From Planctomycetota bacterium (GTDB taxonomy: Bacteria; Planctomycetota; Planctomycetia; Planctomycetales; Planctomycetaceae): DNA of 59,111 nucleotides. A model generated the notes under the pieces. The model searched no databases and was not told the origin of the DNA. It saw only the letters and a program-made list of their open reading frames with translations. The position numbers and the translations under genes were made by a program. Where the stretch lies: the NCBI GenBank assembly GCA_003671275.1, contig QWPB01000042.1, positions 1 to 59,111 of the forward strand. The letters are read 5' to 3'. This document shows positions 41,258 through 44,056 of the stretch, piece after piece. Each line of letters begins with the position of its first letter. The stretch's first letter is position 1.

Positions 41258-44056
41258 ATGGCTGACGAACCCAAAATCACCCCGATGATGCAGCGGTATC
41301 TCGACGTCAAGGCCGAGACTCCCGGGGCGATTCTGCTTTTTCGGATGGGGGATTTCTATGAACTGTTCTACGAGGATGCCGAGACGGCGGCCAAGGTTCT
41401 GGGCCTGACCCTCACCAGTCGCGACAAGGGATCGGCCAATCCCGTCCCCATGGCTGGATTCCCATATCACGCCCTGGAAGGCTACCTCAACAAGCTGATC
41501 CACGCCGGTCATCGGGTGGCGGTCTGTGAGCAGGTCGAAGACCCCAAGCAAGCCAAAGGCATGGTCCGCCGCGAAGTGACCCGCATCGTGACGCCCGGCA
41601 CGTTGACCGATGATGCCCTGCTCGATCCGAAGGAGAGCAACTTCCTGGCGGCGGTCTTTCCCGCACGCGACCGGGTCGGCGTGGCGTGGCTGGAACTCTC
41701 GACCGGACGGTTTCAATGTGCTGACGTGGTCTTGGGCGAATCTCGCAGGGAAGCTGCTCGACCTCCCCGCGACCGCGTCAGTTTGAGTTTCTCGGCGGCC
41801 AGTCAGCAGCCGTCGGCCCTGCTCGACGAACTGGCTCGCATCCGTCCAGCGGAGTGTCTAATCCCCGAGACGCACCGCGCCGACCCGGCGCTGATCCGGC
41901 TGAATGAACTACCCGACATGGTGCTGACCACGCGGGCTCCGTGGTGCTTCGTCCCCGATCATGGCCGCGATGTCCTGCTGCGGCATTTCCAGACCAGCAC
42001 GCTCGATGGGTTTGATCTCGACGCCGACTCGCTGGGGATCACTGCTGCCGGGGCGTTGATCGAGTATGTCGAAGAGACGCAGAAGTCGTCCCTGGGCCAT
42101 ATCGTGCGGCTGGAGCAGTATCGCCGGGGATCGAGCCTGCTGATTGACGAGGCCACGCGCCGCAGCCTCGAACTCACACGTACCATGCGAGAAGGCCGCC
42201 GCGAGGGAAGTCTGCTGTCGGTGCTGGATGAGACCGCCACACCGATGGGTGCCCGCATGCTGGCCGAGTGGCTCTCGAACCCGCTGACCGATCCGCTCGC
42301 CATCGGACGACGATTGGATGCCGTCGAAGAACTGATGCGCGACTCGAAGCTCGGACGTGAGTTGCAAGAGCTACTCAAGCAAGCGTACGACATGCAGCGG
42401 TTGTGCGCGCGCGTGGCGACGATGCGCGCGTCAGCGCGCGATCTGGTCTCGCTGGGCCGAACGCTGGCGTTGCTGCCCCGCGTGAAGGCCAAGCTGGCGG
42501 GACGGTTGACCGACCTGCTTCAAACACTGGAGTCGCGGTTGGAACTGTGCAGCGAAATCCGGGCCCAAATCGAAACCACGCTGGTCGATGAACCGCCCCT
42601 GCAACAGAACGAAGGTGGCCTGATCCGTGATGGTTTTCATCCGGGGCTGGATGAGCTGCGCGATCTCGCTCGAGGGGGCAAACGGTGGATCGCAGAGTAC
42701 CAGGCGCAGGAAATCGAACGCACCGGGATCAGCAACCTGAAAGTCGGCTTTAACAAGGTGTTCGGATATTACCTGGAAGTCACCGCATCGCAGATGACGA
42801 AAGTCCCCGCCGACTACATCCGCAAGCAGACCCTGAAGAACCAGGAACGCTACATCACCCCGCCGCTGAAGGAGTACGAAGACAAGGTTCTGCGGGCCGA
42901 AGAGCGGGCGATTGCATTGGAGAACGAGCTGTTCCAGAAGCTGCGCGATGTGGTGAATGCCGAGTGCCGTCGCTTGCAGCAAACCGCCGAGGTACTGGCT
43001 CAGCTCGACGTGCTGGTCGGACTGGCCAAGCTGGCGGTGAGCCTGCGTTACTGCCGTCCGGAGATCACGACCGCTCCCCTCCTCGACATTCGGGATGGCC
43101 GGCACCCGGTGCTGGACAAGCTGCGTCCGACGGGGGAGTTTGTACCGAATGATGTGGTGCTGGGGGGGGAAGAGTCAGACGACGAAAGTGGCGAGCCGGA
43201 AGAGTTAGCGCCCGGAGTCGTCAGCGAGAGTGGCTCTCCTGCGCCTTTGCTCAATACTCCGGGCGATCACGCTTCCGGCTCTCAACCATTTATCCAACTC
43301 ATCACCGGCCCCAACATGGCCGGGAAAAGTACCTACATCCGGCAGGCCGCCCTACTGACGATCATGGCGCAGATCGGGTCGTTCATCCCGGCCCGCTCCG
43401 CTCGGATCGGGATTGCGGATCGGATCTTTGCTCGCGTGGGAGCCAGCGATGAACTGGGCCGCGGACAAAGTACCTTCATGGTCGAAATGACCGAGACTGC
43501 CCGCATCCTCAATGCGGCCACCGAGCACAGCCTGGTCATTCTCGACGAGATCGGTCGTGGGACGAGTACCTATGACGGGATCTCGCTGGCGTGGGCCATC
43601 ACCGAGTTCATTCACGATGACCTCCGTTGCCGCACGCTGTTCGCCACGCACTACCATGAACTGACCGCGCTGGCGGAGTCACTCCTCGGAACGGCGAACT
43701 GGAATGTGGCCGTGCATGAGCGCAACGGCGAACTGATCTTCCTGCACAAGATCGTGCCGGGGGCCGCCGACAAGAGCTATGGAATCCAGGTCGCCCGCCT
43801 GGCCGGAGTTCCTCGCGAAGTGATCGAACGCAGCGAGGTGATTCTGCAAACCCTCGAAGCCGACCACCAGGACTCCTCAGGTAAGACCACCATCCCCCAA
43901 CGCAAACGCAAGTCCAAGCACAAACAGCTCACCCTGTTCGGCCCGGAGTATCATCCACTGCTCGACGAACTGCGAGCTCTCGACACCGACCACATGACCC
44001 CTGCTGCAGCGCTGGATGCTTTGCAACGGATTCGCACACGTCTCGGGGCGAGGTAG
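41258..44056 (+). CDS. mutS: DNA mismatch repair protein MutS
   Basis: MutS recognises mispairs and starts mismatch repair. Domain I has the mismatch-binding [14 protein letters not shown] (Phe-x-Glu motif). The connector, lever and clamp domains follow up to about residue 640. The ATPase domain shows Walker [10 protein letters not shown] (684-692), a Walker B region [15 protein letters not shown] and the [13 protein letters not shown] segment. Length is 932 residues, longer than the usual 850-880. Much of the excess is a low-complexity insert (about residues 640-676) just before the ATPase core; its DNA is a dispersed palindromic repeat (43193-43281). A GCGCGCG-rich stretch occurs at about 42406-42441. 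No mutL is adjacent. Confidence 0.97.
43193..43281. repeat. palindromic repeat inserted in frame within mutS
   Basis: Left arm 43193-43217 and right arm 43257-43281 match the perfect 25-bp arms of the element at 24646-24715 at 23 and 24 of 25 positions, with a 39-base spacer between. The element starts on a codon boundary of mutS and encodes residues 646-675 with no stop codon. Outside it, the flanking mutS codons read into the conserved [11 protein letters not shown]. Confidence 0.85.

Follow-up and report, generated by a model that had tools for sequence, protein, structure and literature searches.

A REP-type repeat in a planctomycete mutS gene, probably spread by a transposase and apparently tolerated as a disordered loop

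Our analysis of a 59,111-nt stretch of planctomycete DNA (hereafter, the window) points to a repeat of the REP type that was probably spread by a REP-associated tyrosine transposase (RAYT), became inserted in mutS and is tolerated there as a disordered loop; taken as a whole, we consider this explanation likely. Specifically, a 25-nt arm that folds as a small bulged hairpin, alone or in a REPIN-like inverted pair, would be the repeating unit, and the probable agent of its spread would be a tyrosine transposase of the REP-associated type, an HUH/Y1 enzyme that works on single-stranded hairpins and is still present in related planctomycetes. One arm pair would then have landed directly before the Walker A motif of MutS, where a short turn joins two beta strands, and other arms would likewise have been taken up by valyl-tRNA synthetase (ValS), methionine synthase (MetH), dihydrolipoamide acyltransferase (E2), a VWA protein and a PQQ protein. 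The pair would be tolerated as a disordered loop because one of its readings is free of stop codons and rich in Glu, Pro, Gly and Ser.

The repeat and its copies inside genes

In the intergenic copy, the arms at 24646-24670 and 24691-24715 form a perfect inverted repeat (26 bp counting the flanking C/G). The earlier note had reported that these arms recur in mutS with two and one substitutions, and that the element there starts on a codon boundary, lacks a stop and adds about 30 residues; positions and mismatch counts are as it described (Table 1). The mutS palindrome measures 89 bp from its two arms and is read as MutS residues 646-675, codon 646 starting at position 43193 and codon 675 containing 43281. 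It is open in its frame, in which G or A at the variable place of the arm would give a stop. The figure of about 30 residues holds for the palindrome itself and needs refinement for the loop, in which residues 638-677 stand at a place with ~3 in most relatives, the palindrome providing ~30 of the ~40 extra residues.

Table 1. Features of the mutS locus and the intergenic copy (window coordinates), and arm-bearing genes elsewhere in the genome (place handles)
Feature	Position or place	Strand	Remarks
mutS, 932 aa	41258..44056	+	ORF without internal stop; Pfam MutS domains I-V; NCBIfam NF003810, 1050 bits
Lineage-specific loop, MutS residues 638-677	43169..43288	+	exceeds that of most relatives by ~37 residues
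mutS arm 1	43193..43217	+	2 mismatches to arm; read as EPEELAPG
mutS palindrome spacer	43218..43256	+	39 nt, vs 20 nt in the intergenic copy
mutS arm 2, inverted	43257..43281	-	1 mismatch; coding strand reads TPGDHASG
Walker A motif, residues 684-692	43307..43333	+	intact; 51-row alignment
Intergenic palindrome copy	24645..24716	.	between minus-strand ORFs 23662-24492 and 24780-27086
VWA/YfbK_C protein	C197		arm in long frame with Pfam domain
PQQ propeller	C70		arm in long frame with Pfam domain
ValS	C74		arm in long frame with Pfam domain
E2	C126		two arms in long frame with Pfam domain
MetH	C167		arm in long frame with Pfam domain

The earlier note had held that its reading of the element as mobile would fail if the arms did not recur elsewhere in the genome. 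They do: the 5.03-Mb source genome, a draft in 198 contigs, holds 15 arms at up to 3 mismatches, at 11 places, against 0 for a reversed control pattern, and 100 shuffles of the window gave zero arm matches. A shorter arm core adds a twelfth place (C84); at 3 mismatches this core had 24 matches against 24 in the control, so that only matches with 0-1 mismatch were used. Other inverted or repetitive sequences also occur in the window, namely an array of diverged 48-nt repeats of several families (19008-20032) and two strong inverted repeats (23454-23577 and 15356-15414, with 48-nt arms 75% and 29-nt arms 90% complementary).

The predicted fold of the single arm is a hairpin, CCGG-AA bulge-GCG-TNAG-CGC-CCGG, with a two-A bulge (-6.2 kcal/mol, z -2.4, 8/200 shuffles equally good), which corresponds to the imperfect 20-40-nt hairpin palindrome of REPs. 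The pairs fold more strongly, both the intergenic one (-41, z -9.9) and that in mutS (-31.9, z -5.8), with 0/200 shuffles as good in either case. The arms are dispersed, single or as inverted pairs, as in REPs and REPINs, and all pairs among the arm loci inspected are in +/- order, 45-64 nt start to start, with their GAG ends outward. No target-site duplication of the kind that marks a MITE was seen by eye around three pairs. Among 96 distinct arms, selected at up to 3 mismatches, the flanks show only weak GC before and weak T after, and GAG precedes the stem; GTAG or GTGG before the stem and CGTC at its end are absent at either end. For this comparison, we used the rule given in passages of PMC6006769, a basal stem of 7-20 nt with GTAG or GTGG 0-2 nt ahead of it; the basal stem of the planctomycete arm is 4. 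In its anatomy the unit is thus a REP/REPIN, except that the customary GTAG/CGTC tag is missing. A search of 59 genomes found arms at 2 mismatches in 11, among them the window's own and G051, which has 322; at 3 mismatches, congener G001 has 17 and congener G002 has 27.

Seven of the 12 arm places in the window's genome lie within genes (MutS, ValS, MetH, E2 twice, and the VWA and PQQ proteins), four lack a spanning frame of >145 aa and the last sits at the end of a contig; the mostly extragenic location typical of REPs is therefore not seen in this genome. Across these genes the arms are read in three frames, as PGADASG (ValS, MetH, E2), as EPEASAPG-like peptides (PQQ, E2, MutS) and as AGSVSAR (VWA), and in MetH, E2 and MutS they lie between domains. 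That an ordinary low-complexity linker merely resembles an intergenic repeat by chance would fit residues typical of linkers, and is hardly credible in view of the empty genome-wide control, the reading of the same DNA in different frames in different genes, and a palindrome score in mutS of 22, against at most 12 in 100 codon shuffles. Repeat-like peptides were also noticed in ValS (SGRRESAVNAGDP.ASHADSRET.VPRSLD, twice; L006, reverse strand) and in the VWA protein (TLTPSLSPEGRGEPE; L004).

Relatives differ in what these linkers hold. ValS of G017 holds an arm in the linker that has one in the window's genome, accompanied by what looks to the eye like a decayed partner; a second arm pair is apparently present elsewhere in that gene (L323, 1160-1260). 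The MetH linker has 43-48 residues in 20 of 23 rows and 73-74 in three (the window's genome, G003 and G017), the 23 being those of 30 loci that fitted the pattern, two of them second loci of genomes already counted. In E2, no arm was found within 7 mismatches in either congener (81% and 79% identical) or in five other relatives, and the linkers of G001 and G002 are similar in length to that of the window's genome. Neither congener had a match to MetH or, at E 1e-40, to the VWA protein; for ValS, G001 had no match and G002 just a weak one (E 2e-5). Of 44 arm matches in the congeners, 30 had loci; nine of these 30 frames were run against Pfam, and one of the nine had domains, the arm lying ahead of them.

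The MutS loop and its relatives

In an alignment of 51 MutS rows, residues 684-687 and 689-691 of the Walker motif are invariant and 688 and 692 are at least 90% conserved, and the catalytic columns are invariant or nearly so. E. coli MutS aligns as far as FIAN and resumes at RMLIITGPNM, the insert falling in a turn of ~8 residues. The AF2 model (50 rows) has a mean pLDDT of 87.4 and retains the MutS fold, with E. coli MutS as its best fold match; residues 649-673, between strands 631-635 and 679-683, score below 50. The insert apparently fits a tolerated disordered loop in this model. The earlier note had proposed structure prediction to show whether the insert is a surface loop: a disordered loop between strands is what AF2 predicts, and its surface location is suggested by the position in E. 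coli. A second low-confidence, variable segment lies at 41738-41818 of the window (MutS ~161-187), where relatives' matches break too. We infer that living cells translate the insert and that their MutS is still functional.

Related MutS proteins mostly do without these residues, in contrast to the universal presence that the earlier note had named as evidence against its mobile-element reading. Measured from RHPVL to TGPNM in 97 of 110 rows (30 + 80 loci; 13 off-pattern; isolate OFTM22, which is G017, counted twice), the loop has 25-27 residues in 78 rows, 28-34 in five and more in 14, including 63 in the window, 75 in G001, 48 in G017, 52 in G023 and 50 in a verrucomicrobium (L247). The congener G001, whose MutS is 90% identical, carries at the same place an insert that is unrelated and also palindromic. 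Specifically, identity between the two proteins is 576/628 in residues 1-630, 9/37 in 641-677 and 189/193 in 678-870; outside the loop, dN is 0.044 and dS 1.04 (dN/dS ~0.04), and the rest of MutS is under purifying selection. That the insert is an assembly or binning artefact would suit a draft of so many contigs, and is very unlikely given that the reading frame continues undisturbed on either side and that other assemblies have comparable loops (MutS of G001, G017 and G023; ValS of G017).

Among 18 distinct loops longer than 27 residues, five (the window, G001, G017, G023 and L247) are self-complementary beyond all 100 codon shuffles, and 13 show no such excess, which suggests that many long MutS loops are of other or decayed origin; a further loop, of 42 residues (G013), was not among the 18. 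The window's loop is made of the REP arms, that of L247 of another short repeat, and those of G001, G017 and G023 look as though built of GTTGAG-like heptads. It might be supposed that the palindrome is retained for a nucleic-acid function in mutS, as an mRNA or DNA hairpin that tunes expression or recombination, since the mutS copy, for all its three substitutions, still has a better fold than each of 200 shuffles, and self-complementarity is shared by four other MutS loops. We think this unlikely: the stem is interrupted, the sequence is unconserved even in the congener, and most of the long loops lack the property.

On a MutS tree of 51 rows chosen by the author, made by a quick method with the loop columns omitted, the palindromic state requires at least four changes, three of them forced by starred branches, and the label "palindromic" is no more clustered than shuffled labels, as expected of scattered changes. 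These patterns could be read more boldly: in planctomycetes, and in at least one verrucomicrobium, the turn before Walker A would be a site that repeatedly accepts self-complementary repeats, independently filled by unrelated repeat classes, with loops that modulate MutS (e.g., mismatch repair or mutation rate) instead of being merely tolerated; we regard this extension as doubtful.

A candidate mobilising enzyme and linker turnover

Relatives of the source genome offer a probable enzyme for the arm family. In G015, a 190-aa frame (P0001) matches Pfam Y1_Tnp with 34.2 bits and has REP_Tyr_transpos as its best NCBIfam match (50.8 bits, below the cut-off of 80). This RAYT-like gene has an exact inverted arm pair on either side, one of which, the second, is in -/+ order. 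A search of 397 genomes of the class found homologues in 92 of them (E 1e-20 or better), and among 30 homologue loci fetched, eight (L262, L263, L264, L266, L267, L268, L276 and L283) have arms at up to 3 mismatches and four more (L265, L272, L275 and L281) have arms with 4-5, giving 12/30 at up to 5; the other 18 hold no family arm within 5 mismatches. Single-base shuffles of these loci gave 0.02 matches per locus at up to 6 mismatches. At L276, arms lie on both sides of the gene, three of them exact and a fourth with 1 mismatch. In the wider family PF01797, only two of 30 loci fetched (L128 and L146) have arms at up to 3 mismatches, one of them being the G015 gene itself. Further, the RAYT of the congener G001, 46% identical, is enclosed by the two halves of a 51-nt inverted repeat, in which a longer relative of the arm can be made out by eye.

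This association is seen in relatives, and no cognate was found in the window's genome, which has no match to the G015 RAYT at E 1e-20; its arm copies may therefore be relics. Three Y1 matches in this genome were considered and set aside, having no arm within 6 mismatches in their flanks and no close likeness to the G015 enzyme. That a transposase of this kind moved these particular copies thus stands as our inference. Nor was a clean empty site found in MutS of G001 or in E2 of G001 and G002; the other repeat in the congener's MutS loop and the similar E2 linker lengths make replacement, instead of simple insertion, possible. The earlier proposal of a mobile repeat made protein-coding is supported: arms recur and related MutS proteins lack the residues. 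The probable enzyme is found in relatives, not in this genome.

One possible alternative, which we entertain tentatively, is that no transposase was involved and that permissive linkers gain any dispersed repeat through ectopic recombination, template switching or replication errors linked to palindromes. The missing RAYT and the nearly unchanged E2 linker length favor it, as do the GTTGAG-type heptads that ValS, MetH and E2 also have near the arm and the palindromes apparently built of heptads in MutS of G001, G017 and G023. The tie between the arm family and RAYT genes in relatives, often with pairs on both sides, weighs against it, in that spread there looks enzymatic, and we continue to prefer a RAYT-spread repeat.

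Heptad arrays, (GTTGAGN)n, occur on several contigs of the window's genome (L152-L181), inside genes that include UvrA, an Lhr helicase, ValS, MetH and E2. The survey gave 38 overlapping matches against 5 in the control, eight of them without a locus, and fifteen places were inspected. All fifteen lie in open frames of at least 219 aa, reading STLNPQ or STLNPQP-like peptides, and 11 are internal; the arrays at L155, L170, L174 and L181 are near the frame start just before Met and may be untranslated. All ten heptad frames run against Pfam had a family, among them Lhr and UvrA (array internal) and PhoU, a NuoC-like protein and a symporter (array at the start). Heptad orientation is uninformative because the opposite strand holds TGA.

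Comparison with known systems

REPs inside repair genes are already a known kind. In its main text, PMC3733652 describes REPs inside genes, dimers or groups of which encode 20-30 residues, with many of the intragenic REPs in replication and repair genes (uvrA, recBCD, DnaE2) and also in tRNA synthetases; the term mutS is absent from that main text. PMC3116915, in the part concerned, defines REPINs and reports excisions. We found no report of a REP in mutS in the literature searched, which consisted mainly of openly available main texts. Within the same literature, three aspects appear new: a tag-less planctomycete family with a probable enzyme, the intragenic share of its copies, and a MutS loop filled by self-complementary repeats several times. 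Our results provide a clear case outside Rickettsia of hairpin-type mobile DNA within housekeeping proteins, with a probable source enzyme in relatives. They suggest that protein linkers in some bacteria evolve through the uptake of dispersed repeats, and they allow a test of whether repeated alteration of one loop has affected the activity of a mismatch-repair protein.

The closest system is that of REP/REPIN and RAYT (TnpA-REP), which the planctomycete repeat resembles as a short, sometimes bulged, dispersed hairpin with inverted pairs and a Y1 transposase nearby in relatives, and from which it departs in lacking GTAG/CGTC, in its few copies and in having more than half of its places here inside genes. 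TIRYT/TIR elements, as outlined in PMC3733652, likewise involve Y1 transposases with flanking inverted repeats and no GTAG, whereas the motif GGGGWSAS of some members is absent from the arm consensus. The earlier note had compared the insert to the Rickettsia palindromic elements (RPEs), and the likeness holds for how they work, both being palindromic repeats that lie in frame within housekeeping genes unrelated to one another (description in PMC10969869); it does not extend to membership. By that description, on which this comparison is based, RPEs are ~150 bp long with one conserved peptide, in contrast to 25-nt arms or ~70-90-bp pairs that encode unlike peptides in three frames and are of REP/REPIN type. 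PMC3733652, in the passage concerned, places RPE-4 and RPE-6 among its CGTC repeats.
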